Shown here in pieces: positions 3,588 to 17,851 of a stretch of DNA of 64,000 nt. Within the stretch, counting starts at the first letter, position 1, and the number at the start of each line of letters is the position of its first letter. Both the position numbers and the translations under genes were made by a program. The stretch is from Bacteroidetes bacterium MedPE-SWsnd-G2 (GTDB lineage: Bacteria; Bacteroidota; Bacteroidia; Flavobacteriales; Flavobacteriaceae), in contig MPDE01000004.1 in the NCBI GenBank assembly GCA_001874335.1, positions 124,001-188,000 on the forward strand. The letters run 5' to 3'. The notes below the pieces were generated by a model. It was not told where the DNA came from. It saw only the letters and a list, made by a program, of their open reading frames with translations, and ran no database searches.

Positions 3588-5792
3588 TTAAACTCTATTA
3601 ACCTTCTCTATACCATTAATTTTTTTGAGTTTATCCATGAGTTTTTTAAGTATGGTATTGTTGCTTACAACAACCGTTATTTTTCCTGAGAATATGCCGT
3701 CATCGGTTTCAAAACTTATGTTTTTTATGTTTACTTCCATGTTTGAAGATATAACCCGAGTCACTTCATTTACTAAGCCTAAATGATCAATTCCTGACAA
3801 ATTAATAATGGCCTTGAAATCTTGTTGACTTGAATCAATCCATTTGGCCGTCATTATACGATACGCATAATTAGATTGAAGACTGAGGGCATTTGGGCAG
3901 GTTTTTTTATGCACTTTAATGCCTTCGTTTATAGTTAAGAACCCAAACACAGGGTCTCCAGGTATTGGATTGCAACACGTAGATAGTTTGTAGTCTAGTT
4001 TTTCTTCTTCTTTACCAAAAACAAGTAAATCGTATGTAGCTGTGATAACCTCTTTGTGAATGTCTTTAGCTACATCTGGCTTTCTAATTCTATTTTTTAT
4101 AAAGCTAACCAACACATTGCTTCGGGATGCTGCAAATTCTTTTAGCATCTTATTGTCAATGGTACCAATACCTACGCGATAAAATAAATCTAAACTCGTT
4201 TTAAGCTTAAAGTAAACTACAAGATCATTTACTGATTTTTCATTCAGACTAATTTTAAGTTGTTTTAATTTTCGTCTTAAAATTTCTTTTCCATCTTCAG
4301 CAATAATTTTACGTTCTTCTCTTAAAGAAGATTTTATTTTACTTCTTGCTCTTGCTGTTGTTGCATAGTCTAACCAGTTTGCATTTGGTTTGGCGTTTTC
4401 AGAGGTTAAGATTTCAACTTGGTCACCACTTTTTAGTTCGTTACTGAGCGGGACAAGTTTTCCGTTCACTCGTGCTCCTCTAGTATTCATGCCTACTTGG
4501 GTGTGAATACTAAATGCAAAATCTAATGGCGTTGCCCCTTTTGGCAATGATTTTAAATCACCCTGAGGCGTAAAGACAAATATTTCTTTTGAGTAGAGGT
4601 TAAGTTTAAATTGCTCAACAAAATCTACAGCGTTATTTTCATTGCTTTCTAATGCTTCCTGAAGTTTGTTAATCCAAACATCAAGTGCATCTTCTTCATT
4701 ACCTTGTTTGTATTTATAGTGCGCAGCATAACCTTTTTCGGCTATTTCATTCATGCGTTCACTCCTGATTTGAACTTCTACCCAGCGTCCTTTAGGCCCC
4801 ATCACTGTTATGTGTAAGGCTTCATACCCCGTTGATTTTGGAGATGAAATCCAATCACGTAGTCGGGTAGGGTTTGGTCTAAAATGATCTGTAACTATAG
4901 AGTATATTTTCCAAGCTAAAAACTTTTCATTAGAAATTTCTGAATTGTAAATAATCCTTACAGCAAACTTGTCGTATACTTCTTCAAAAGAAACCCCTTG
5001 TTTCATCATTTTCTTCCTGATGGAGTAAATAGACTTTGGTCTTCCTTTAATCTCGTAAGACAGTTTTTCGGCATCTAAAGAATTGGTAATAACACTTGAG
5101 AAAGACTTGATATATTCATCTTGCTCTTCTTTGCTTTCTTGTATTTTGTCTAAAATATCATGATACACAGTAGGTTCTGTGTATTTTAAACCTAAATCTT
5201 CAAGCTCAGTTTTAATGTTATAGAGTCCGATTCTATGTGCTAAAGGCGCATAAATATATAAGGTTTCAGAAGCAATTTTTTCTTGCTTATCAGGTCTCAT
5301 TGCGTCCATAGTTTGCATATTATGCAAACGGTCAGCAATTTTTATAATAATTACACGAACATCATCGTGCAATGTCAATAGCATTTTTCTAAAATTCTCA
5401 GCTTGCTGAGATACATCCATGTCTTTGTTTAAAGACGAAATTTTGGTAAGACCATCAACTATGCGAGCAATGGTTTTTCCAAATAAATCTTCAATATCTT
5501 GAATGCTATAATTAGGGTTGTCTTCAACGACATCATGCAAAAGTGCACCGGCAATAGATGTGGCATCCATACCTATTTCACTGGCTACAATTTTTGCAAC
5601 TGCAATAGGGTGAAAAATGTAAGCTTCGCCTGATTTGCGTCTTTGATCTTTATGGGCTTCAACGGCAACATCAAAAGCCTTTCTAATTAAAATTTTATCG
5701 TCTTTAGAAAGCGTCTGGTAGCTTAACTGTAGTAGTTCTTTGTAGCCTTTTGCAATCGCAGCATTTTCTTTTTCAATTTCAACATCTGTCAT
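3588..5792 (-). CDS. bifunctional (p)ppGpp synthetase/hydrolase, RelA/SpoT (Rsh) type
   Basis: 734 residues in the full Rsh order. An HD hydrolase domain has H61 and H86-D87 (HDVVEDNP), and DRLHNM near 153. The synthetase domain has GRPKSIYS near 250-257, an R-L-R-D motif at 310-313, PKSTGYEALH at 318-327 and EVQIRS at 339-344. A TGS domain follows near 403-465 (VFTPQGDLKSLPKGATPLDF), then a conserved-cysteine region (CCNPIPGD) and a C-terminal ACT domain. The intact HD motif and the R-x-R/K-D synthetase motif fit a bifunctional enzyme. It is the first gene of relA-fur-purA, with 26 nt to the next ORF. Confidence 0.96.
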   Translation of the reverse strand: MTDVEIEKENAAIAKGYKELLQLSYQTLSKDDKILIRKAFDVAVEAHKDQRRKSGEAYIFHPIAVAKIVASEIGMDATSIAGALLHDVVEDNPNYSIQDIEDLFGKTIARIVDGLTKISSLNKDMDVSQQAENFRKMLLTLHDDVRVIIIKIADRLHNMQTMDAMRPDKQEKIASETLYIYAPLAHRIGLYNIKTELEDLGLKYTEPTVYHDILDKIQESKEEQDEYIKSFSSVITNSLDAEKLSYEIKGRPKSIYSIRKKMMKQGVSFEEVYDKFAVRIIYNSEISNEKFLAWKIYSIVTDHFRPNPTRLRDWISSPKSTGYEALHITVMGPKGRWVEVQIRSERMNEIAEKGYAAHYKYKQGNEEDALDVWINKLQEALESNENNAVDFVEQFKLNLYSKEIFVFTPQGDLKSLPKGATPLDFAFSIHTQVGMNTRGARVNGKLVPLSNELKSGDQVEILTSENAKPNANWLDYATTARARSKIKSSLREERKIIAEDGKEILRRKLKQLKISLNEKSVNDLVVYFKLKTSLDLFYRVGIGTIDNKMLKEFAASRSNVLVSFIKNRIRKPDVAKDIHKEVITATYDLLVFGKEEEKLDYKLSTCCNPIPGDPVFGFLTINEGIKVHKKTCPNALSLQSNYAYRIMTAKWIDSSQQDFKAIINLSGIDHLGLVNEVTRVISSNMEVNIKNISFETDDGIFSGKITVVVSNNTILKKLMDKLKKINGIEKVNRV

Positions 5793-5885
5793 AAATTAAA
5801 AATACTATAAAGTTCACGTAACGTCAACAAAATTGTTCTTTTTTTGATGATGAATCTTTTAGAACTATCGAAGAAATAAATCGCC

Positions 5886-7118
5886 TTAAGAATTTATGTT
5901 TTTTACACGTTGAAGTAGTGTAGGGTGTGAATAATGCATGAAAACATAGGCTTTATGAGGTGTTAAATTGCTTAAGCTATTTTTAGAAAGTTTCTTTAGT
6001 CCGGAAACTAAAGCTTCACCAGAATGGGTGTTTTTTGCGTAATCATCTGCTTGATATTCAAAAGCTCTTGAAAATAGATTCATTATTAAACCGGTAATTT
6101 CACTTATTGGCGAATATAGTAACCCGAATGCAATAAGACCAGCATGAAAGCTGTGGTTGCCGACTCCAATTGCAAAAGATAATTTTGGATCACCAATAAA
6201 TATGGATAAAAGGAACAGCGTAAAACCAGTTAATATTAAAGACATAATTAGATTAAAAATAATATGCTTCTTTTTATAATGACCAACTTCATGCGCTAAT
6301 ACTGCAACAATTTCATCTTCTTCCAAATCTGAAATTAGAGTATCATATAGGGTTACTCTTTTTTCTTTTCCGAACCCTGAAAAATAAGCATTGGCTTTTG
6401 TGCTTCGTTTAGAACCATCAATAACAAATATGTTGTCTAACTGAAAACCAACTGTACTTGCATATTCCGAAATTTTATCTCTTAGACTACCTTCTTCTAA
6501 AGGTGTTTGCTTATTGAATAATGGCACAATTAATTTTGAATAAAACATATTCATAAAAAAACTAAAAGCACCAAAAATTAACCAAGTGTACCACCAAAAA
6601 TTTGTTTCTGTTTTTTGATAGAACCAGATAATGGCAGAAAGCAAAAGTCCTCCAATTACAATTGACATTAACCATCCTTTTAATTTGTCTATAAAAAACA
6701 TTTTTTTACTTGTTTTATTAAATCCAAATTTTTCTTCAATGACAAAGGTTTGGTAGTAGCTAAATGGGGTTGTGATTACATCAGAACCAAACATGATTAG
6801 CCCGAAAAAAAGGAGTCCGTTTATTATTGGATTACTGCTGAATGATCTCGCAAGCTCATCTGCAATTTCAAATCCGCCACATAACAGGAAAACCAAGGTT
6901 AAAACGAATGAAAAACTTGAAGATAAAAGTCCGAAATTATAGTTGGTACGTTTGTAGTTTTGAGATTTCTTGTATTCTTCTAAATCATAAACATCATTGA
7001 GTTCTTCAGGGATTTCATCCTTAAAATGCTTAGCATTTAGGTAGTCTAATAGTTTGTCGGATAAAAACTTTACAGAAATAATTACTACAATTATATAGGT
7101 AAGTAGAGTAGGCGTCAT
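5886..7118 (-). CDS. M48-family membrane metallopeptidase (Ste24/CaaX-protease type)
   Basis: 410 residues and several hydrophobic segments (about 5-20, 65-82, 100-118, 150-166, 177-195, 288-310, 325-345). The zinc motif HEVGH is at 276-280 and a third-ligand glutamate lies in 'FEYQADDYA' near 353. The N-terminal region 'YYQTFVIEEKFGFNKT' is characteristic of the Ste24 branch. It is an inner-membrane zinc protease, probably for membrane-protein quality control, because bacteria generally lack CaaX-prenylated proteins. It starts 8 nt after the stop of the methyltransferase gene and is probably co-transcribed with it. Confidence 0.9.
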   Translation of the reverse strand: MTPTLLTYIIVVIISVKFLSDKLLDYLNAKHFKDEIPEELNDVYDLEEYKKSQNYKRTNYNFGLLSSSFSFVLTLVFLLCGGFEIADELARSFSSNPIINGLLFFGLIMFGSDVITTPFSYYQTFVIEEKFGFNKTSKKMFFIDKLKGWLMSIVIGGLLLSAIIWFYQKTETNFWWYTWLIFGAFSFFMNMFYSKLIVPLFNKQTPLEEGSLRDKISEYASTVGFQLDNIFVIDGSKRSTKANAYFSGFGKEKRVTLYDTLISDLEEDEIVAVLAHEVGHYKKKHIIFNLIMSLILTGFTLFLLSIFIGDPKLSFAIGVGNHSFHAGLIAFGLLYSPISEITGLIMNLFSRAFEYQADDYAKNTHSGEALVSGLKKLSKNSLSNLTPHKAYVFMHYSHPTLLQRVKNINS

Positions 7119-7126
7119 AAGTTTGA

Positions 7127-7924
7127 TTATTGAAATTGACGTTGTCTTTTAGCTTCATACATTAAAATTCCTGCTGCAACAGATACATTCATAGAGTCTA
7201 TTACTCCTAACATAGGTATGATAATATTTTGAGTGCTGTGATCACGCCATTCTTGGCTTAAACCTGTAGCTTCGGTGCCTACAACTATTGCAGATGGACC
7301 GGTGTAATCTTGCAGGTCGTACCTGCTTGAGGCTTGTAAAGCGGCACAGAATATGTTTATGGAATTTGATTTCAGAAAATTGATAATTTCTGTTGTCGTT
7401 CCCATGGCAATATTATTTGTAAACACGCAACCTACACTCGACCTTATTATATTAGGATTATATAAGTCGGTTTTAGGGTTTGCGATAATAACCATATCAA
7501 AATTGGCAGCATCTGCTGTTCTTAATAATGCGCCTATATTACCTGGTTTTTCTGGTGCTTCAGCAACTAATATTAAAGGAGTTGAAACGTTTAAGCTTGC
7601 ATTAGAAATATGGTGTTCCTTACAATTAGCCACTGCGATAATGCCTTCGGTTGATTCACGGTATGCTAACTTTTGAAAGACATCTTTAGAAATTTCAATT
7701 AATTGAGTGTGTTCAGGATGAATTTTAGCAATTTGATCTTGACTACAAATTTCTGGGTGAAATAAAATGGATTCAATTTGATAATTACCTTTAATTGCTA
7801 TTGATAATTCTCTTAATCCTTCAATTAAAAACTGACCAGATTTTTTCCGGTTTCTTGATTTTTCCTTGAGGGTAACCAATCGTTTAACCTCCTGGTTTTG
7901 TACACTAAAAATTTGTTTCATCAT
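7127..7924 (-). CDS. SpoU/TrmH-family RNA 2'-O-methyltransferase
   Basis: 265 residues. The N-terminal substrate-binding part ('VKRLVTLKEKSRNRKKSGQF') precedes the SPOUT knot domain. SpoU motif 1 is 'KPGNIGALLRTADA', motif 2 is 'IVVGTEATGLSQEW', and motif 3 is 'IPMLGVIDSMNVSVAAG'. It probably methylates a ribose in rRNA or tRNA (RlmB-like), and the exact site cannot be read from sequence. The start is one of two tandem ATGs (7924 or 7921). A -7 promoter element only a few nucleotides upstream implies a very short leader. Confidence 0.9.
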   Translation of the reverse strand: MMKQIFSVQNQEVKRLVTLKEKSRNRKKSGQFLIEGLRELSIAIKGNYQIESILFHPEICSQDQIAKIHPEHTQLIEISKDVFQKLAYRESTEGIIAVANCKEHHISNASLNVSTPLILVAEAPEKPGNIGALLRTADAANFDMVIIANPKTDLYNPNIIRSSVGCVFTNNIAMGTTTEIINFLKSNSINIFCAALQASSRYDLQDYTGPSAIVVGTEATGLSQEWRDHSTQNIIIPMLGVIDSMNVSVAAGILMYEAKRQRQFQ

Positions 7925-7931
7925 TGCAGGA

Positions 7932-7939
7932 CAAAAGTA
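7932..7939 (-). promoter_or_regulatory. -7 promoter element TACTTTTG upstream of the RNA methyltransferase gene
   Basis: On the minus strand TACTTTTG fits the Bacteroidota TAnnTTTG. It ends 7 nt before the ATG at 7924, so the transcript would have almost no leader. No well-spaced TTG -33 box is visible. Confidence 0.5.
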
Positions 7940-7965
7940 ATGGATTTAAGGCAAATTAGAAGTAT

Positions 7966-7997
7966 AAAAAAAGTGACCTCATTGAGGTCACTTTTTA
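7966..7997 (-). terminator. terminator after the amidohydrolase genes
   Basis: Inverted repeat AGTGACCTCA/TGAGGTCACT flanked by A-run and T-run. On minus it follows the stop at 8001 directly and ends in TTTTTTT. Confidence 0.85.
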
Positions 7998-8000
7998 ATA

Positions 8001-9308
8001 TTAATTGGATTCGTATTTTTTAGAATATCGTTTCCATAATTTGGTTTGGTGGGTTTCCAAACTAATTTGTCGGCCATCAATAAATGCGTGAGATAATATA
8101 TTTGTTCTCATATCTAAAGCATCACCTTCGCTAATAAAGAGTGTTGCACTTTTACCAACTTCTAAACTACCATAGTTGTTTTCTATGCCTAAAATAGTTG
8201 CAGTATTTAAGGTAATAAGTTGTAAGGCTTGTTCTTTTGTTAGGCCGTAAGCGGCAGCTGTACCAGCGTAAAACGGTAGGTTTCTTGAATTCATTCGCTC
8301 CATTTGACCACTTGTTTCCAGTCCAACAGTTATACCTTGATCAACAAGTAATTTTGCCATTTTAAATGGTAAATCATAATCGTCATCATCGCTTGAAGGT
8401 GTTCTGTGAACTCGATTTAAAAGCACCGAAATATTATTAGATTTTAAGAAAGGCCCAATATGTTGAGCGCCATCTCCACCAACAATAACAGTTTTAGAAA
8501 CACCATGTTGTTTAGAGAAATTTACAGCATCTGTAATGGCTTTTTCACCATTAGCATGAATGAAAAGGGTTTTGTTTTTATTGAAAAGCCCTTCCATTGC
8601 TTCTAATTTTAAATTTGGAGCGTTGGTATTGCTTGAGTTGTAAGCTTTACTCTCTTTAATGAAATTACTTAAATCATTAAGTTGTTTTTCGTAATTATCA
8701 TTTGGTTTTAAATTTGGGTCTTCTCCTAACCACCATCTCCCACGTGTGAACAAACTTGGCCAGTTTAAATGGATCCCATCATCAGTTTTGATTGCAGCAT
8801 CTTCCCAGTTCCAAGCATCCAATTGTACAATAGATGACGTACCAGAAATACGGCCGCCTCTTGGTGTTACTTGTGCTAATAAAACGCCATTGGGTCTCAT
8901 AGATTCAACAACTTTAGACTCGGTGTTGTAGGCTATAATACTTCTAATGTTAGGATTTAATGGTCCAATTTCATCTTCATCATCGGTAGCTCTTACCGCG
9001 TCAATTTCTACTAAACCTAATGTTGAGTTAGGAACAATAAACCCCGGGTAAACATGTTTACCTGAAGCAGGAATCACAGTCATTCCGTTTAAATCCATTT
9101 TTACAAGACTTCCGTCTACGATGGTTTCAATTTTACCATCTTTAAAAATAATAAGGCTGTTTTCGATTACTGATCCGTTACCTATATGAGCAGTTGCTCC
9201 TACAATAGCAATAGCTGAAGATTGCTTTGGAGCAGGTGTTTGTTGTCCTTGCATTCCAATTACAAATAGACCAAACAATATCGTAAATATGTGTGTTTTA
9301 AATTTCAT
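8001..9308 (-). CDS. amidohydrolase-family exported protein, degenerate metal site
   Basis: 435 residues. A signal peptide of about 21 residues ends GMQGQ. The composite amidohydrolase layout is an N-terminal beta-sandwich ('SLIIFKDGKIETIVDG'), a TIM-barrel-like middle, and a C-terminal 'LEVGKSATLFISEGDAL' return strand. The first metal motif, normally PGFIDxHxH, reads PGFIVPNS at 88-95, so both histidines are absent. A later His (IHANGEKAI) and 'GGDGAQHIGPF' remain. Either it is non-catalytic or it binds metal differently. It follows the 995-residue relative by 20 nt, so the two probably form a functional pair in the periplasm. The substrate is unknown. Confidence 0.82.
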   Translation of the reverse strand: MKFKTHIFTILFGLFVIGMQGQQTPAPKQSSAIAIVGATAHIGNGSVIENSLIIFKDGKIETIVDGSLVKMDLNGMTVIPASGKHVYPGFIVPNSTLGLVEIDAVRATDDEDEIGPLNPNIRSIIAYNTESKVVESMRPNGVLLAQVTPRGGRISGTSSIVQLDAWNWEDAAIKTDDGIHLNWPSLFTRGRWWLGEDPNLKPNDNYEKQLNDLSNFIKESKAYNSSNTNAPNLKLEAMEGLFNKNKTLFIHANGEKAITDAVNFSKQHGVSKTVIVGGDGAQHIGPFLKSNNISVLLNRVHRTPSSDDDDYDLPFKMAKLLVDQGITVGLETSGQMERMNSRNLPFYAGTAAAYGLTKEQALQLITLNTATILGIENNYGSLEVGKSATLFISEGDALDMRTNILSHAFIDGRQISLETHQTKLWKRYSKKYESN

Positions 9309-9328
9309 GTTTATATATTTTAATTGGA

Positions 9329-12316
9329 CTATTTTTCAATAAAATGTACATCAGACCCTGTGTCACAATGCATATGTTCTTTTTCCTTTTTCTTGATAGG
9401 TTGTGTGCTCATTCCTGAGTTTTTAGCTTCCATCATCTCATTTATTAAAGCACTTTTGTCCTTTTTTATTTGAGCTCTTAGTTGCTTGTCTCTTTCAATG
9501 TCAAAGTAAGTCACACCTTCAATAATTGTTTTTTCAGCTTTGGCGTAAATGCTCATCGGATGATCTGACCATAAAACTAAATCGGCATCTTTTCCTACCT
9601 TAATACTTCCTACTTTGTGATCAATATGTAAAAGTTTTGCAGGATTTAAGGTTACAAATTTCCAAGCGTCTTCTTCGCTAACACCACCATACTTTATAGA
9701 CTTAGCAGCTTCCTGATTTAATCGTCTTGACATTTCGGCGTCATCACTATTAATTGCAGTTACAACACCTTGGTTGTGCATGATTGCTGCATTGTAAGGA
9801 ATAGCATCGTTAACCTCGTATTTGTATGCCCACCAGTCACTAAATGTAGAACCACCTACACCATGTGCTTTCATTTTATCGGCTACTTTATAACCTTCTA
9901 AAATATGTGTAAAGGTGTTGATATTGAAATTAAACGACTCAGCTACTTTCATCAGCATATTAATTTCACTTTGAACATAGGAGTGACAAGAAATAAAACG
10001 CTCTTTATTAAGAATCTCTAAAAGGGTTTCTAATTCAATGTCTTTTCTATAAGGCTTTCCGCTTGCTTTTAGCTCTTGATACGCTTTTGCTCTTGAAAAG
10101 TAATCTACATATACTTGTTCGGTACCCATTCTTGTTTGCGGAAATCTAACCGTTTGGCGATCACCCCAATTAGATTGTTTTACATTTTCACCTAATGCGA
10201 ATTTTATAAACTTTGGTGTGTCCGGAAAAATTAAATCCTCAGCAGATTCACCCCATTTTAATTTTATAATTGCAGAACGCCCACCAATAGGGTTTGCAGA
10301 ACCATGAAGAATTTGAATAGATGTAACACCACCAGCAAGGTTTTGATAAATACTTATATCCTCATCGTTAATCACATCTTCGATGCTTACCTCGGCAGAT
10401 GAGTTTTGACCAGCTTCATTTATAGCGTCGGCAGCAATATGAGAATGTTCATCAATAATACCAGCTGTAAGGTGTTTGTTTGTAGCATCAATTACAATAG
10501 CGTTTTTAGAAGATAAATCTCTTCCTATTTTTGCAATCTTACCATCCTTTACCAATACATCAGTCTGTTTTAAAACCCCTTCAGATTCATTTGTCCATAC
10601 CGTTGCGTTTTTAAAAAGTAAGGTCTGTGATTTTGGTTTTTCGTTAAATCCGTACGCCACATTAGGGAATGAAATTGGCATAACCGATTTCATTTTCTCA
10701 GCTTCTTTTGGCTTTAATTCTTTTTTAGAATCTTCGCTTGTATTTAATACCGCATTAAAAGATTGTTTGTTACCGTTTGGTAAAATTGCTGTACCCACCA
10801 GTTTGTTGTTTTTGAGAGTATTTGCAGAAATACGAATAAACTTTTTACTCACTGTATCAGGTGTTGTTATAGATAAGTTTAACCAATCTCCCTTATATTT
10901 GGCAGAAGAGCCAAGCTTTAGGTTGTTTGCAGTAACTTCAGTTTTTAATTTTTTTGATGGCCCTGATACCTTTAATGTGTAAGCATCTCCATTTAAATTG
11001 AACTTATATGTTCCTGTTAAATCTTTAGAATTGATATCATCAAAAATGTTTTGTTGACCTTGAACCCAGTGTTCAAAAGTTTTTGTTGATTTTTCAAAAA
11101 CATCACCAGAAGTGATAAAGAAATTAGCATACTTCCCATTTTCTAAAGTTCCAATATTACTTTCTTGATTTAAAATTGAAGCAGGAATAGTGGTTAGGGA
11201 TTTTAAAGCCATTTCTTTACTGAAACCATAAGAGATTGCAGTTAATAAATTTTGCTTAAAGTCTTTTATAGATTTTAAACTGTGTGAGGTTAAAGCAAAG
11301 GTTACGCCGTTACTTTCTAACGCTGTTAAGTTGCTACCTTGTTGATTCCAAGCTTTTAAATCGCCTAATGAAATTGATTTTGAAAGTTCGGTATCTTCAA
11401 CATTGTAAGGCTTTTTGAAATTAATAGGAATGATCATTTTGGCGTTTGTTGCCTTGATTTCAGAAATTCGTTCATATTCATTTCCACCACCTAAAATCAC
11501 ATATTGAATATTAAATTCATCACCTACTTTATCAGCGCGCAATGCATTTGTTTTACTTCCGGCTGTAAATATTTGGGTTAGGCTTTTATTGTTATTTAAG
11601 GCTTCCAGAGATCTGTCTTTTGTTAAAGAATGACCATTGGCATACCACTCAGCATCCAAGTACATTTGCCTTAACAATGCCATGCTTCCCATAAGTGAAG
11701 TAGGGTAGGATTGTCTTGAAGTAACACTTTTACTAAACGCTAAATACTGGGCAGATTTGTCGGCGATAATCCTGTTAGCATTAGAACCACTATTGTTTAA
11801 AGCAACCAATAGTCCTGTTCCTCTAACAATTCCATCTTGATTGTGTGTGTTTACAACTCCAAAACCATTTTTCAATAATTCGGTGGCAGCTTTTTTGTCA
11901 TAATTAAATTTATCTATCGCATTCTGTTCTGGCTTGATATGATCATTCCAGTAGTATCCAGTTCTGGATGCATCATATTGCGGGTTTTGACCCGTTGCTC
12001 GTTTAGCCTTCGCTACTCCAAAATTAGAGTAAATGTCTATAAAGGAAGGGTAGACAGAATTGCCTTTAATATCGTAAACTACGGTGTTATCGGGTAATTT
12101 TAAATTTTCACCGCTATCCATCACCTTGCCATCCTTAATTAAAAGTGTACCATTTTCGATGACTTTTTCAGGACTGAGGTGAATTTTAGCATTGGTAATG
12201 GCAATAAAATGATGATTACTATTCATGACGCCATCATTTTTAGGAAAATAATCTTGTCCACAAATAGACATGCTACTTATTAAAAACATAAATAGCATTG
12301 CAAATGCTTTATTCAT
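9329..12316 (-). CDS. double-domain amidohydrolase-family exported protein
   Basis: 995 residues with a signal peptide of about 20 residues (ends SICGQ). Residues about 30-430 form a first amidohydrolase-like unit whose metal motif reads PSFIDIYSN (90-98), without HxH. Residues about 430-565 are a beta-rich linker ('LTGTYKFNLNGDAYTLKV'). Residues about 565-960 are a second amidohydrolase unit with intact IIDEHSH (near 619-625), 'ISCHSYVQSEI', 'THILEGYK' and the catalytic-type Asp in 'AINSDDAEMSRR'. The C-terminus is Lys/Glu-rich. Only the second unit looks able to bind the metal pair. It is likely a periplasmic peptidase- or imidazolonepropionase-like hydrolase, and the substrate is unknown. 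The next gene begins 20 nt after its stop. Confidence 0.85.
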   Translation of the reverse strand: MNKAFAMLFMFLISSMSICGQDYFPKNDGVMNSNHHFIAITNAKIHLSPEKVIENGTLLIKDGKVMDSGENLKLPDNTVVYDIKGNSVYPSFIDIYSNFGVAKAKRATGQNPQYDASRTGYYWNDHIKPEQNAIDKFNYDKKAATELLKNGFGVVNTHNQDGIVRGTGLLVALNNSGSNANRIIADKSAQYLAFSKSVTSRQSYPTSLMGSMALLRQMYLDAEWYANGHSLTKDRSLEALNNNKSLTQIFTAGSKTNALRADKVGDEFNIQYVILGGGNEYERISEIKATNAKMIIPINFKKPYNVEDTELSKSISLGDLKAWNQQGSNLTALESNGVTFALTSHSLKSIKDFKQNLLTAISYGFSKEMALKSLTTIPASILNQESNIGTLENGKYANFFITSGDVFEKSTKTFEHWVQGQQNIFDDINSKDLTGTYKFNLNGDAYTLKVSGPSKKLKTEVTANNLKLGSSAKYKGDWLNLSITTPDTVSKKFIRISANTLKNNKLVGTAILPNGNKQSFNAVLNTSEDSKKELKPKEAEKMKSVMPISFPNVAYGFNEKPKSQTLLFKNATVWTNESEGVLKQTDVLVKDGKIAKIGRDLSSKNAIVIDATNKHLTAGIIDEHSHIAADAINEAGQNSSAEVSIEDVINDEDISIYQNLAGGVTSIQILHGSANPIGGRSAIIKLKWGESAEDLIFPDTPKFIKFALGENVKQSNWGDRQTVRFPQTRMGTEQVYVDYFSRAKAYQELKASGKPYRKDIELETLLEILNKERFISCHSYVQSEINMLMKVAESFNFNINTFTHILEGYKVADKMKAHGVGGSTFSDWWAYKYEVNDAIPYNAAIMHNQGVVTAINSDDAEMSRRLNQEAAKSIKYGGVSEEDAWKFVTLNPAKLLHIDHKVGSIKVGKDADLVLWSDHPMSIYAKAEKTIIEGVTYFDIERDKQLRAQIKKDKSALINEMMEAKNSGMSTQPIKKKEKEHMHCDTGSDVHFIEK

Positions 12317-12377
12317 AATTATGGTTGGTATTAAATTAGGTTGAAAAGATAAAAAAATTAAAATGGATTGGGATTTA

Positions 12378-13454
12378 TTATATTAAATGAGATGGCCTCT
12401 TCTCAAAATAATTTACAAGTAAAGCTACAACATAGCTATAACTTTCAATCCCACCGGCTTGATTATTGGCTTCCAAGTAGCTGTTGTAAGTGGTTTTAAA
12501 TAAAGGTTCGATAGGGTTTTGATAACTGTCCCAAAAGTTTCTTACTTCTGCGTAGTTTTTAAATACGCCTTTATTTAAAGTAGTTTTGATTTCCTTAAAA
12601 TAATCTGGATCTCTAAGGTAAATTTCTGCTAAACAATGTTTCAAGGCAAATGCATAGCCCGAATATTTAAAATAGATGTTGTCGTTATGGGTAGCAGCCA
12701 TAAATCCTATAAAATTAGCTTCGTTTTCAGCAGCATAGCCTAATTGATGGGCAACTTCATGACTTCCTGTTGTTGGGTATTTGTATTTAGGAATCATATC
12801 ATCAATCTGGGCTTCATTGGTGAACGGATTTAGATATCCGCTAAATCCCATATAGGTTAATTGCAGACTGTATAAGGATGGTTTAATACTCGCATGAGAA
12901 TAACTTAAATGCGGGTATTGTTTTGATAAATTGGAATATCCGTTTGGAATTTGAGCTAATAACTCCGACTTAGAGTATGGAAACTCAACTTTTAAAGTGT
13001 CCGAAACTGATAGGCTATCATGTAGTGAATTTACCTTTTCAATGAGTTGCCTAGTGGTATCTTTAAGTTCTTCTGTAGTGTACGAGTTATCAACCTCTAA
13101 AGTATGATGTAATGGCAATCGGTTATAGTTTAAGGCCCAAAGCATATGAAATGCAAAAAAGGCAATAGAGATTGTGGCTAATACATCAATGCAGTAAGTT
13201 TTGAAATCTTTGATAAAGTGTTTTCTGTTTTTATAGAGCCATCTAATGACATAAATACTTGCTAAGGTGTAAAGCAAATCTCCTATTGAAACCGGAATCC
13301 ATCCAAAAGAAAAGTGCATCGCTTTTGAAATCCACGGGTAAATACCATTACTGTAAAAAGTCTCTATCCATTCTGGTTTAAGAGAAAGTAGTTTTATAAT
13401 AATGACCTGAGGAATAATTGAAAAGGCAACAATTTTTTTAGTGGTTCTCTGCAT
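12378..13454 (-). CDS. DUF3810-family membrane protein with HExxH motif
   Basis: 358 residues. Hydrophobic segments lie near 8-25, 45-70 and 90-110, followed by a soluble domain. 'SHEVAHQLGYAAENEANF' near 230-247 supplies HExxH plus a downstream glutamate, as in gluzincin-type zinc proteases. The family is a Bacteroidota-specific DUF, and protease activity is inferred only from the motif. It stands first in the minus-strand set leading into the amidohydrolase genes (61 nt gap) and diverges from pepD. Confidence 0.85.
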   Translation of the reverse strand: MQRTTKKIVAFSIIPQVIIIKLLSLKPEWIETFYSNGIYPWISKAMHFSFGWIPVSIGDLLYTLASIYVIRWLYKNRKHFIKDFKTYCIDVLATISIAFFAFHMLWALNYNRLPLHHTLEVDNSYTTEELKDTTRQLIEKVNSLHDSLSVSDTLKVEFPYSKSELLAQIPNGYSNLSKQYPHLSYSHASIKPSLYSLQLTYMGFSGYLNPFTNEAQIDDMIPKYKYPTTGSHEVAHQLGYAAENEANFIGFMAATHNDNIYFKYSGYAFALKHCLAEIYLRDPDYFKEIKTTLNKGVFKNYAEVRNFWDSYQNPIEPLFKTTYNSYLEANNQAGGIESYSYVVALLVNYFEKRPSHLI

Positions 13455-13568
13455 CTTTCAAAAATAGAAAAAGTTTACTCTTGATGCTGATTCTCACTCT
13501 TAATTTGAGTTCGGTTTTAAGAATTTCTTTTTTTTGAGAGAGTTAACAAAAAGGTTTGTTTGAATATG

Positions 13569-13576
13569 TACCTTTG
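13569..13576 (+). promoter_or_regulatory. -7 element TACCTTTG upstream of pepD
   Basis: Matches TAnnTTTG and ends 19 nt before the ATG at 13596. It lies inside the longer TTG-started reading frame (13560), which is therefore not the likely start. The -33 region (GTTAAC) is poor. Confidence 0.5.
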
Positions 13577-13595
13577 TGCAACTAAAAAAAACAAC

Positions 13596-15056
13596 ATGAA
13601 TTCAGAAATAAGATCTTTAGAGCCAAAGGCACTTTGGAACAAATTTGCAGATTTAAACGCTGTACCCCGACCATCGAAAAAAGAAGACCGTGTTATTGCC
13701 TTTATGAAGGATTTTGGAGCTTCATTAGGGTTAGAGACAATAGAAGATGAGGTAGGAAATGTTATAATAAAAAAGCCTGCTACTGCAGGAATGGAAAATA
13801 GAAAAACCATTGTAATGCAATCGCATTTAGATATGGTACATCAAAAAAACTCTGATACCGAATTCGATTTTGATACTCAAGGAATAGAGATGTATGTTGA
13901 TGGGGACTGGGTTAGAGCAAAAGGCACAACTTTAGGAGCTGATAATGGATTAGGAGTTGCTACTATAATGGCAATTTTAGAAAGTGATTCTATCGCTCAT
14001 CCCGCAATTGAAGCTTTGTTTACTATAGATGAGGAAACAGGAATGACAGGTGCAATGGGTTTAAAAGGTGGTTTATTGGATGGAGAAATTCTTTTAAATT
14101 TAGATACAGAAGAAGACGATGAAATTGGTGTAGGTTGCGCTGGTGGAGTAGATGTTACAGCAACGCGAAGCTATGAGTTAGAAGAAACTCCAGAGTTTAA
14201 GGTAGGTTATACTATAGAAGTTAAAGGACTTCAAGGTGGACATTCAGGAATGGATATCCACAGAGGTTTAGGAAATGCCAATAAAATTTTAAATAGAATT
14301 TTATTTGATGGTTTTGAAAATTTCGGAATGCGTATTTCTGAAATTAACGGTGGAAGCTTACGTAATGCTATTCCAAGAGAAAGTATGGCAATAATTACTG
14401 TTGATGCAATTCATGAAGAAGCTTTTGTTTTAGAAAGCAACTTATTGGTGAATAGTGTTAAAACCGAATTGAAAACCATGGAGCCAGAATTAGAAGTTAT
14501 TATTTCTAAATGTGAAAGCCCAAAATTCATTATGGATTTAGGAGTGCAAGAAGGGTTGACTCGTGCTTTATATGCTGCATTAAATGGAGTGTACAGAATG
14601 AGTGCTGATATCGAAGGCCTTGTTGAAACATCTAACAATATTGCTCGCGTAATAGTAAAAGATGGTGCAATTAAAATAGCGTGTTTAACGCGTTCTTCTG
14701 TTGAAAGTTCTAAATGGGATTTGGCTAATACGCTAAGATCAACGTTTGAACTTACAGGCTGTGAGGTTGAGTTGTCTGGAGAATACCCAGGATGGAGCCC
14801 AAACATGGATTCTGATATTCTAAAGGTAATGTCTAAACTATATGAAGATTTAAACGGGGAGAAGGCAAATGTAGCTGCTTGTCATGCTGGATTGGAATGT
14901 GGAATATTAGGTCAAAATTACCCAGAAATGGATATGATAAGTTTTGGTCCAACCATTTTAGGTGCACATTCACCAGATGAGCGAGCGAGTATTTCTTCGG
15001 CTAAAAAATATTGGAACTTTGTTTTAGAAACTTTAAAACAAATTCCGTTGAAATAA
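13596..15056 (+). CDS. pepD: aminoacyl-histidine dipeptidase (M20 family, PepD)
   Basis: 486 residues from the ATG at 13596, matching E. coli PepD (485). It hydrolyses Xaa-His and other dipeptides in the cytoplasm with two metals. Metal and catalytic motifs are QSHLDMVH (H77, D79), TLGADNGLG (D116), TIDEETGMTG (E145/E146), 'NLDTEEDDEIGVGCAGG', and a late 'GAHSPDERASI' supplying the final His. The dimerisation insert begins near residue 190 with 'GLQGGHSGMDI'. An upstream in-frame TTG at 13560 is rejected because the promoter -7 element lies within that extension. The gene is monocistronic and ends in a hairpin terminator shared with the opposing PPIase gene. Confidence 0.95.
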   Translation: MNSEIRSLEPKALWNKFADLNAVPRPSKKEDRVIAFMKDFGASLGLETIEDEVGNVIIKKPATAGMENRKTIVMQSHLDMVHQKNSDTEFDFDTQGIEMYVDGDWVRAKGTTLGADNGLGVATIMAILESDSIAHPAIEALFTIDEETGMTGAMGLKGGLLDGEILLNLDTEEDDEIGVGCAGGVDVTATRSYELEETPEFKVGYTIEVKGLQGGHSGMDIHRGLGNANKILNRILFDGFENFGMRISEINGGSLRNAIPRESMAIITVDAIHEEAFVLESNLLVNSVKTELKTMEPELEVIISKCESPKFIMDLGVQEGLTRALYAALNGVYRMSADIEGLVETSNNIARVIVKDGAIKIACLTRSSVESSKWDLANTLRSTFELTGCEVELSGEYPGWSPNMDSDILKVMSKLYEDLNGEKANVAACHAGLECGILGQNYPEMDMISFGPTILGAHSPDERASISSAKKYWNFVLETLKQIPLK

Positions 15057-15072
15057 TCAATTGATGAAAAAT

Positions 15073-15105
15073 AAAAAAGCCGTTCTTTTTAGAACGGCTT
15101 TTTTT
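15073..15105. terminator. bidirectional terminator between pepD and the PPIase operon
   Basis: AAGCCGTTCT/AGAACGGCTT stem with a short loop, A-run on the left and T-run on the right, between convergent stops at 15056 and 15125. Confidence 0.93.
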
Positions 15106-15124
15106 ATAAGTTGAAATTAGAAAT

Positions 15125-16300
15125 CTATTTTACAATTTCTACCATTTCCATAACAAAAATCAAATCTGTATTAGGCTTGATTGGGCCTCTTCCTCTTTCG
15201 CCATAGCATAAGTGAGAAGGCATATAAAAATAGCCTTTATCACCAACATTTAATAATGTTGCAGCTTCTTTAAACCCAGCAATCATCCCTTCGTCAGGGC
15301 TAATTTTCATTTCCATTGGCTTGTACATGTCACGTTGTACTTTCATTTCATTAAACGTACCATGTCTTTTTTCAACACTTTCAACGTTACTGTCAAATAA
15401 TGAACCATCAACAAAGTAGCCTTCATAGTTTACTTTTACTTTAGAGCCCTCTTTTGGCTTTTCACCATTACCTTCGTTTATTAAAAACATTTTTAGGCCA
15501 GAACCTAAGGTTTTTGCCTTAGCATCGTACTCGTCTAAGGTGACTTTTACCACTTTTCCGGCTTCAACATTTTTAAGTTTTCGAGCCTCTTGCTCTTCTT
15601 TAGCCTTACGCTGCACTTCTTCACGTAATTCTTGTTGTCTTTGTTGAACTTTAGGCATTTCTTCAGTAAATACTTTAGGTGCATCAAAAGCTTTAGCTTC
15701 AGATCCTTTTCTAATAATATTTAAAGATTCAATTACTACATTTTCTGCAGGTTTGTTAGCCGCAACAACTTTTACATTTGAGATAGAATCTTGAACATCA
15801 AGTCCAATCACTAATTCTCCAAATACTGTATGCCTATTGTTTAAGCTTGGATAAGGTACTTCTGTGATGAAAAATTGAGAACCATTAGTTGCCGGTCCTG
15901 AGTTAGCCATTGAAAGTACACCTGGTTTATCGTGTAATAAATCTGGGTGGAATTCGTCAGCAAACTTGTATCCAGGGTTTCCTTGTCCTGTACCTGTTGG
16001 GTCACCACCTTGAATCATAAATTGATCGATAACGCGGTGAAAAATTGTACGGTCGTAATACCTTTTTCCTTGGTAATCTTTAGCTAAAGGGTGGTTTCCC
16101 TCTGCCAAAGCAATAAAATTGGCAACCGTTACAGGTGTTTTGTCATAGGTAAGCTTAGCTACCATTATCCCTTTATTAGTTACAAATTCTGCATAAATAC
16201 CATCTTCTAATTCAGGGTATTCCTCTTTACAGGCTGTTGCTGTAAGTAAAAGCAATAAAATGCATAATTGTGTAAGCTTCAATAAATTTTTCTTAATCAT
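15125..16300 (-). CDS. peptidyl-prolyl isomerase lipoprotein, cyclophilin-FKBP fusion
   Basis: 391 residues. A lipoprotein signal has its lipobox near residues 21-24 (TATAC). Residues about 30-195 are a cyclophilin domain (FHRVIDQFMIQGGDPTGTGQ; SMANSGPATNGSQFFIT). Residues about 200-260 are a Glu/Lys/Gln-rich helical linker. Residues about 278-391 are an FKBP domain (KVNYEGYFVDGSLFDSN; 'YFYMPSHLCYGERGRG'). Two unrelated prolyl isomerase folds are thus joined in one membrane-anchored chaperone. Its ATG overlaps the gldI stop by 8 bp (ATGATTAA), so it is translationally coupled to gldI and may serve folding of exported gliding or secretion proteins. Confidence 0.92.
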   Translation of the reverse strand: MIKKNLLKLTQLCILLLLLTATACKEEYPELEDGIYAEFVTNKGIMVAKLTYDKTPVTVANFIALAEGNHPLAKDYQGKRYYDRTIFHRVIDQFMIQGGDPTGTGQGNPGYKFADEFHPDLLHDKPGVLSMANSGPATNGSQFFITEVPYPSLNNRHTVFGELVIGLDVQDSISNVKVVAANKPAENVVIESLNIIRKGSEAKAFDAPKVFTEEMPKVQQRQQELREEVQRKAKEEQEARKLKNVEAGKVVKVTLDEYDAKAKTLGSGLKMFLINEGNGEKPKEGSKVKVNYEGYFVDGSLFDSNVESVEKRHGTFNEMKVQRDMYKPMEMKISPDEGMIAGFKEAATLLNVGDKGYFYMPSHLCYGERGRGPIKPNTDLIFVMEMVEIVK

Positions 16301-16838
16301 TTTGAGTTTGGGTTATTGTGTTTACAGTTACTTTACAAATTAAAGGAACATTGGTTCCTATTTTATTTTCATCACCATAATAGCCATATGCTTTCTGTGA
16401 CGGAAATAGGAAGGTTACAGTTTCAGTAGGTTTCATAAGCTTTAAACCTTCTCTTAATCCTGTAAACAATTCTTCCTTGTCCATTATATAGTTTTGGGTG
16501 CCTAATTCAGAAGTCGAATAAATTTCGTTTCCACTGAAATCAGAGACATTGTAATTAAAGTTTACAACATCCCCAAAGCTTGGCATTATAGTATCTTTTT
16601 CAATTTTTGAATTATAGTAGTACCAAAATCCGCTTTTTGAAGCGATATACTCCACGTCAGTTTGTGCCGCATTCATTTCTTCAATACGCAATTTTTGAGC
16701 ATTGAACATCGCTTTATTGCGTTCAACAGATTCAGATATAAATGAACCAGATGATTTTGAAATAGGTTTGCGTGCTTCTGGAGATTTGCAAGCGCAAAGC
16801 GCCAGGCACATACCAAAGGTTAATAAAAGCGTTTTCAT
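16293..16838 (-). CDS. gldI: gliding-motility-associated peptidyl-prolyl isomerase lipoprotein GldI
   Basis: 181 residues with a lipoprotein signal ending LCAC (Cys17). The C-terminal FKBP-like domain includes 'GDVVNFNYNVSDFSGNEIY', 'GLREGLKLMKPTETVTFLF' and 'YGYYGDENKIG'. Both the domain and the gene order (DHH phosphoesterase then gldI) match GldI of Flavobacterium johnsoniae, where it is needed for gliding. The start overlaps the upstream stop by 4 bp (ATGA) and the end overlaps the next ORF by 8 bp. Confidence 0.85.
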   Translation of the reverse strand: MKTLLLTFGMCLALCACKSPEARKPISKSSGSFISESVERNKAMFNAQKLRIEEMNAAQTDVEYIASKSGFWYYYNSKIEKDTIMPSFGDVVNFNYNVSDFSGNEIYSTSELGTQNYIMDKEELFTGLREGLKLMKPTETVTFLFPSQKAYGYYGDENKIGTNVPLICKVTVNTITQTQND

Positions 16839-17851
16839 GAGTTTAGAGCATTTTTATAGCTTGGTAATATACTAATAAAATATTCAATTGTAGATTTCAT
16901 GTTTTCAGTACTTCTACCTCCTGCAGCATTCGTGTGACCGCCACCATTAAAGTGCATTCTTGAAAATTCATTTACAGAAAAATCACCTTTGCTTCTTAAA
17001 GAAACCTTTATAATGCCTTCTTTTTGGCTTTCAATAAAAATGACAGCAAAACAAATGCCTTTTAAAGATAACCCATAGTTTACAAAACCTTCGGTGTCTC
17101 CTTTTTTAAAGTTATTATTGTTTAGTTCTTCTTGAGACAATGTAATGTACGCCGTTTTATACTCGGGTAAAACTACCATATTGCGTAAAGCGCAACCTAA
17201 CAATTGAAATCGGCTTTCTGAGTTGTTATCGTATACTGCGTTGTGTATGTCTGATCCATTGGCACCTTTGTCCAATAGATTGGCAGTAATTCGCATTGTA
17301 GTGCTCGATGTACTTGGAAATCTAAATGATCCCGTATCAGTCATTATCCCCGTATATAAGCAGCTTGCAATATTCTTGTCAATTAATTCTGTTTGATCAA
17401 GCATATCAATAAAGTGATACACCATCTCGCAGGTTGACGACATGGTCACATCTGAATACATGTATTTAGCATAGGGGTCAGGTTGCTGATGATGATCAAT
17501 CATAATTTTTACAGCTGAACTGGATTCCAAAATAGCCTCCATTTGCCCTGCTCTATGAAACGCATTAAAGTCTAAAGTAAATACGATATCAGCTTCAGAA
17601 ATAATTTTATCACAGCTTTCAGTATGACCTTCGTATTTCAGGATGTCAGTTTCATTAGGCATCCATTTTAAAAACTCGGGATAATCATTAGGAGCAATTA
17701 TAAGTGGCTGATGATTAAGCTTTGTCAAAAAATGATAGAGGCCTAAACAAGAGCCTATGGCATCACCATCCGGATTTTTGTGTGGAACAATTACTATCTT
17801 TTTAGGTTCTGATAGTAAGTCTTTAATCTCAATTATATCTTGCTCTTTCAT
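16835..17851 (-). CDS. DHH/DHHA1-family phosphoesterase (NrnA-like)
   Basis: 338 residues from the ATG at 17851. An in-frame TTG two codons upstream is a less likely start. DHH motifs are HKNPDGDAIGS near the N-terminus, 'TLDFNAFHRAGQ', MIDHHQQPD, 'GIMTDTGSFRFPSTSS', and the DHHA1 motif FNGGGHTNAAGG near the end. NrnA proteins degrade nano-RNA and dephosphorylate pAp, and some relatives cleave cyclic dinucleotides. Which substrate applies here is not visible. It is the first gene of the coupled set with gldI and the fusion PPIase. Confidence 0.92.
   Translation of the reverse strand: MKEQDIIEIKDLLSEPKKIVIVPHKNPDGDAIGSCLGLYHFLTKLNHQPLIIAPNDYPEFLKWMPNETDILKYEGHTESCDKIISEADIVFTLDFNAFHRAGQMEAILESSSAVKIMIDHHQQPDPYAKYMYSDVTMSSTCEMVYHFIDMLDQTELIDKNIASCLYTGIMTDTGSFRFPSTSSTTMRITANLLDKGANGSDIHNAVYDNNSESRFQLLGCALRNMVVLPEYKTAYITLSQEELNNNNFKKGDTEGFVNYGLSLKGICFAVIFIESQKEGIIKVSLRSKGDFSVNEFSRMHFNGGGHTNAAGGRSTENMKSTIEYFISILPSYKNALNS

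Follow-up and report, generated by a model that had tools for sequence, protein, structure and literature searches.

Two adjacent minus-strand genes of Bacteroidetes bacterium MedPE-SWsnd-G2, located at positions 8001-12316 of the 64,000-nucleotide stretch of contig MPDE01000004.1 analyzed here (the window), encode three homologous amidohydrolase domains, only one of which has kept the metal site. We refer to the smaller protein as A, to the larger one as B, and to the two halves of B as the N and C domains. Judged from sequence, these domains belong to a genuine unit that is both old and widespread and in which an active amidohydrolase barrel is combined with one or two inactive ones; the window contains this unit in the form of an N-C fusion plus A. 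We consider it likely that A, N, and C make up one exported heteromeric metallohydrolase, in which C would be catalytic with a binuclear site and A and N would be obligate pseudoenzyme subunits.

Results

Both open reading frames (ORFs) were confirmed on the minus strand, B at 12316-9329 (995 residues) and A at 9308-8001 (435 residues), with B as the first gene in the direction of transcription and a spacing of 20 bp. As judged by eye, both begin with a signal-peptide-like stretch. With 36.9 bits for A and 81.7 bits for B in comparison to a gathering cut-off of 25, PF01979 places both proteins in the amidohydrolase superfamily, and amidohydrolase models match each of the three domains. Among solved structures, PDB entry 3OOQ is closest to A (E 3.3e-23) and also to the C half (E 1.5e-55 across residues 564-939 at 9500-10627). 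It is homologous to C and A over the full length and comes from Thermotoga maritima; no paper was found under this code in the open-access literature. The N domain (approximately residues 22-425, 11042-12253) is a predicted pseudo-amidohydrolase barrel, based on its homology to stand-alone N genes elsewhere and on its ligand positions. The link between N and C (approximately residues 426-545, 10682-11041) contains no Pfam family above cut-off when 10667-11044 is searched; Lsr2 reached 15.1 bits with a cut-off of 29.6 and was not credited.

At the six ligand positions of 3OOQ (H, H, K, H, H, D), the window domains have N-T-H-H-G-S in A, Y-N-Y-T-G-H in N, and H-H-K-H-H-D in C. C thus contains all six binuclear-metal ligands, the same as 3OOQ, namely H624 and H626 of the HxH motif (10439-10447), the beta-4 lysine K705 (10202-10204), H778 in beta-5 (9983-9985), H804 in beta-6 (9905-9907), and the catalytic aspartate D858 in beta-8 (9743-9745), all of which are invariant in 49 fused proteins. 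Binuclear superfamily members carry a carboxylated beta-4 lysine, and carboxylation would also be expected for K705. The site of the missing HxH corresponds to GFIVPNS in A (residues 89-95, 9024-9044) and to PSFIDIYSN in N (residues 90-98, 12023-12049). A retains the beta-5 histidine in the segment FIHANG (residues 249-254, 8547-8564) and has a histidine in place of the beta-4 lysine. By the ligand criterion for catalytic members of the superfamily, C is classed as catalytic, and A and N are not. An initial annotation of the window had described HxH as missing from the 435-residue protein and the first half of the 995-residue protein and as kept in the second half together with a downstream His/Asp set; the alignment to 3OOQ agrees on both points and adds the beta-4 lysine.

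We counted the ligands in 244 loci with linked C and A from Bacteroidota, Myxococcota, Pseudomonadota, Acidobacteriota, and other phyla, as well as in 143 N domains; the domain sets were chosen by score against models from the first 80 loci, so that very divergent members were missed, and smaller ligand sets used loci L041-L120 and L172-L220 only. All six ligands were present in C in 244 of 244 cases. The A domains had none of them in 168 cases, one in 62, two in 11, and three in 3, and HxH occurred in a single A (locus L322), which is without the lysine, the beta-5 histidine, and the aspartate. No N domain had more than two of the six, and the only one with HxH (1 of 143, locus L093) is without the other four. 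As this pattern is conserved across the sampled relatives, it is more than chance. The loss of HxH, for which the initial annotation had proposed an alignment of homologues, is thus a conserved feature, and neither exception has a full site. The three A domains with three ligands, L322, L314, and L320, are all from Acidobacteriota and are the least decayed A domains observed.

That the degenerate domains could have alternative metal ligands had been named in advance as an argument against loss of catalysis. No histidine or cysteine is conserved to at least 85% in A (124 sequences) or N (88 sequences), which speaks for the loss; on the other hand, a loop of A (residues 99-113, 8970-9014) contains three conserved acidic residues, E101 (98%), D110 (100%), and E113 (87%), and A may therefore still hold a non-catalytic metal site. 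Other conserved residues are R138 (99%), P304 (98%), and R342 (92%) in A and P205 (100%), R216 (97%), and R260 (96%) in N.

A and C were each searched in 247 Bacteroidota genomes sampled in an identical manner (E ≤1e-45 for A and E ≤1e-88 for C). Both were found in 130 genomes, C only in 1, A only in 0, and neither in 116, after weak matches had been dropped in 17 genomes for A and 11 for C. The sequence of the sole genome with only C runs into Ns. Looser searches found A in 147 of the genomes (E ≤1e-5) and C in 142 (E ≤1e-25). A lack of co-occurrence of the two genes would have spoken against the pseudoenzyme interpretation of the initial annotation; the near-perfect co-occurrence of A and C instead ties the dead domains to the live one. 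In 80 fetched A loci, fused N-C is located beside A in 43 cases, separate N, C, and A genes are found in 23, and A is without C alongside in 14. C is thus beside A in 66 of these 80 loci, and in the other 14 genomes, which belong to three families, C sits elsewhere in the genome.

The set is present well beyond Bacteroidota. In a wider scan of genome contigs with an alignment centered on 3OOQ, we examined the best 80 of 541 relatives, which is not a census. Among these, a single active gene is the usual state in Thermotogota, Bacillota, and a few others. C occurs together with A in Alphaproteobacteria and one gammaproteobacterium, and Acidobacteriota have either this pair or the three genes N, C, and A. 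In Bacteroidota, Balneolota, Latescibacterota, and Krumholzibacteriia, A is accompanied either by N and C or by fused N-C. The single-gene relatives, which include 3OOQ, retain the metal site. At locus L212, N-C has no A alongside, and A was found elsewhere in the same genome. Two loci, L150 and L164, have three and two tandem amidohydrolase genes, respectively, all of which keep all six ligands, unlike the live-plus-dead pairs.

Searches in individual phyla (counted as loci, with a few genomes contributing two) revealed further arrangements and fusions. In Myxococcota, 57 of 193 genomes gave a match at E ≤1e-60, and C-A is fused in 34 of 49 loci, a rate that is not fair as the loci were picked as matches to a fusion query. 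The three loci counted as C only in this phylum are L265, which is cut by a contig end, and L269 and L275, where the A ORF beside C fell below the domain threshold; at L283, the partner scored best as A', a second type of partner described below. A further search for A in seven Myxococcota genomes gave a match in all seven, beside C or at contig ends. In Pseudomonadota, C was found in 20 of 249 genomes (E ≤1e-80), with A beside it in 21 of 22 loci and a partner matching best to the A' model in the remaining one. In Acidobacteriota, C was found in 88 of 199 genomes (E ≤1e-80), and A is linked in 68 of 70 loci, the other two (L319 and L330) being cut by contig ends. These 70 loci include 13 C-A fusions, 14 N-C fusions, and 1 N-C-A fusion, the latter a single ORF of 1377 residues whose middle domain alone contains HSH and the remaining C motifs. 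A 2523-residue ORF of one genome, which appeared to be a giant fusion, was rejected, as it turned out to be a stretch of Ns.

The initial annotation had proposed duplication, fusion, and loss of catalysis. Duplication, fusion, and loss of the metal site are supported, but the losses are neither recent nor local, and the N-C fusion is confined to some lineages. In an unrooted tree of 110 domains, calculated by a quick method, C and N each form one clade with full support, and N groups with A; the deepest splits are weak. By eye, A, N, and C resemble one another closely in their internal branching. On this tree, A, N, and C are old separate branches that are common to several phyla, by descent or transfer. 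The dead partners at the Bacillota loci L167, L184, and L215 group with the active copies of the same loci and not with A, and dead partners therefore probably arose more than once. Bacteroidota have a second adjacent pair, A'/C', in 15 loci (L121-L133, L139, and L140), in which A' (approximately 400 residues) has no HxH and C' (approximately 435 residues) has the full ligands, both with signal-like N-termini. Full ligands were found in 15 chains and no HxH in their 15 partners; at least one protein labeled A' (at L122) is a C' by tree position, and the ligand counts are independent of the label.

We compared the columns conserved in single-gene enzymes with those of C and A, using 3OOQ and 28 loci as the single-gene set (n = 29; the tandem loci L150, L164, and L167 were excluded). 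Most catalytic columns stayed with C, and four columns, at positions 70, 89, 119, and 236 in 3OOQ numbering, persist in A and have largely changed in C. Position 70, five residues after HxH and corresponding to E101 in the A of the window, is the sharpest of these. It is Glu in 24 of the 29 single-gene enzymes and in 137 of 139 A sequences (Asp in the other two), and in only 2 of 128 C sequences; all 32 C sequences with an unshortened loop have Ala, Pro, or Ser there. Among the 244 C-A pairs, 229 A sequences have Glu at position 70, 7 have Asp, 6 have a gap, and 2 have Gly or Ala; an alignment-free pattern for the A loop was found in 125 of the 139 A sequences. The retention of Glu-70 in A, its near absence from C, and its usual presence in single-gene enzymes suggest a composite active site shared by A and C. 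The pattern would be expected if the Glu had served the site of the neighbor in an ancestral homo-oligomer, and a purely structural role in A would fit it as well. The pair at L167 fits such a split, as its active chain lost the Glu and its dead chain kept it. The pairs at L184 and L215, in which both chains are without the Glu, do not fit, nor does A'/C', and 5 of the 29 single-gene enzymes also lack it.

The genes around the set gave no clue to its function: apart from A, N, and C, the widest neighbor family (ORFs of at least 120 residues, blastp) was present in only 9 of 80 Bacteroidota loci. A 358-residue ORF at 12378-13454 of the window (minus strand) is directly upstream of the fused gene, and a similar-looking family accompanies the set in 5 of 80 loci, which all belong to the closest relatives. 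Further upstream on the minus strand, the translation of 15125-16300 appears by eye to have a cyclophilin domain and, after it, an FKBP domain, and that of the adjoining ORF at 16293-16838 is FKBP-like.

Discussion

According to the explanation we favor, the two genes would produce one exported heteromeric metallohydrolase from three homologous amidohydrolase barrels. C would be the subunit that carries out catalysis, at a binuclear metal site, and A and N would be pseudoenzyme subunits that lost their site and were retained because C needs them, most likely since they stand in for a second protomer, as present in an ancestral homo-oligomer, and so complete or shape the active site of C. The live-plus-dead set recurs in linked or fused form across several phyla, which makes it probable that the dead domains are essential partners. 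The physical complex, the dependence of C on A and N, and a periplasmic location are what we infer from these patterns. A and N may also regulate or scaffold C, as the initial annotation had put forward for the pseudo-enzyme domains. The enzyme would hydrolyze a peptide-like or N-acyl substrate, judging solely by its kinship with peptidase-like amidohydrolases. A more specific version, to which we give somewhat less than even chances, is a split active site: the duplicates of a homo-oligomeric hydrolase would share one site, to which C contributes the metals and A a Glu that is inserted into C from the neighboring barrel, N would be a later copy of A that fills another place, and the same division would have arisen again in the Bacillota pair at L167.

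Several observations weigh against the heteromer. In a coevolution analysis of 244 C/A pairs (Neff 173, with an eight-group residue alphabet), no signal of a symmetric interface emerged, even though the control within chains performed as it should. Of the 20, 40, and 80 top-ranked pairs, 0, 0, and 0 were symmetric (shuffled means 0.1, 0.3, and 1.1), with 4 at 150 (4.1) and 16 at 300 (14.8); the strongest inter-chain pair nevertheless joined position 370 of one chain to position 370 of the other. As the genomes are related, the Fisher P value of the co-occurrence overstates independence; the 14 unlinked cases are confined to three families and possibly reflect one or two events; the set is missing from 116 of the 247 Bacteroidota genomes; and the partial assembly with L197, where C is at a contig end, gave no A.

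The lack of an interface in the coevolution data would suit the view that A and N are regulatory or binding barrels, for example for substrate or peptidoglycan, that act in the pathway of C without forming a complex with it. Each of them may have kept or gained a pocket, as each has conserved residues of its own, such as D110 in A and P205 in N. We nevertheless regard this as rather unlikely, since the direct C-A, N-C, and N-C-A fusions and the adjacency in several phyla favor a physical unit over separate pathway partners. It is still less probable, in our estimation, that A and N are themselves enzymes whose chemistry is different and unrecognized, either metal-dependent or metal-free, which would amount to three activities instead of one. 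The acidic residues retained past the lost HxH of A, the beta-5 histidine in the A of the window, and the three A sequences with three ligands could be read in this way, but neither A nor N has a conserved histidine or cysteine, and the Glu at position 70 is also found in most single-gene enzymes, so that the Glu of A was inherited and is not new. Simple decay of functionless duplicates that are kept by chance would account for the loss of metal ligands in two domains; this is strongly disfavored and close to untenable, as 130 of the 131 C-bearing Bacteroidota genomes also have A, which has residues conserved to near 100% and is kept even when unlinked.

The heteromeric metallohydrolase that we favor is built from known parts, as amidohydrolase barrels and enzyme-pseudoenzyme complexes are both established. 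The single-gene relatives of the 3OOQ type have HxH and usually Glu-70, whereas C, which has lost this Glu, occurs together with A and, in the window, also with N. The Xaa-Pro dipeptidase and arginine carboxypeptidase group (2QS8, 3MTW, and 3BE7) gave weak local matches to A and B, and membership in the Xaa-Pro dipeptidase family NF051886 was rejected, with 33.4 bits for A and 75.3 bits for B in comparison to an equivalog cut-off of 500. The alpha/beta mitochondrial processing peptidase likewise combines one catalytic subunit with one homologous inactive subunit, but it has another fold and chemistry, and the set described here has two inactive homologues in many lineages. Within the superfamily, the aspartate transcarbamoylase of Pseudomonas aeruginosa is reported to need an inactive pseudo-dihydroorotase for activity (PMC7053772). 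The likeness lies in an inactive superfamily chain that is needed by its partner, a need that for the window set we infer. In the P. aeruginosa system, the partner is an unrelated enzyme (PMC7053772), whereas the set described here consists of homologous barrels with signal-like N-termini and occurs in several fusion orders. No aspartate transcarbamoylase gene was noticed beside A when the ORFs overlapping 4000-17000 were inspected by eye.

No description of the live-plus-dead set was found in our searches of the open-access literature. If our explanation is true, the set would be a widespread and apparently undescribed exported bacterial enzyme that is an obligate heteromer, with dead copies as working parts. 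As all three domains match amidohydrolase models, assays of A or N alone would then be expected to fail. With one, two, or three genes and three kinds of fusion, the set would provide a natural series for studying how pseudoenzymes become indispensable.

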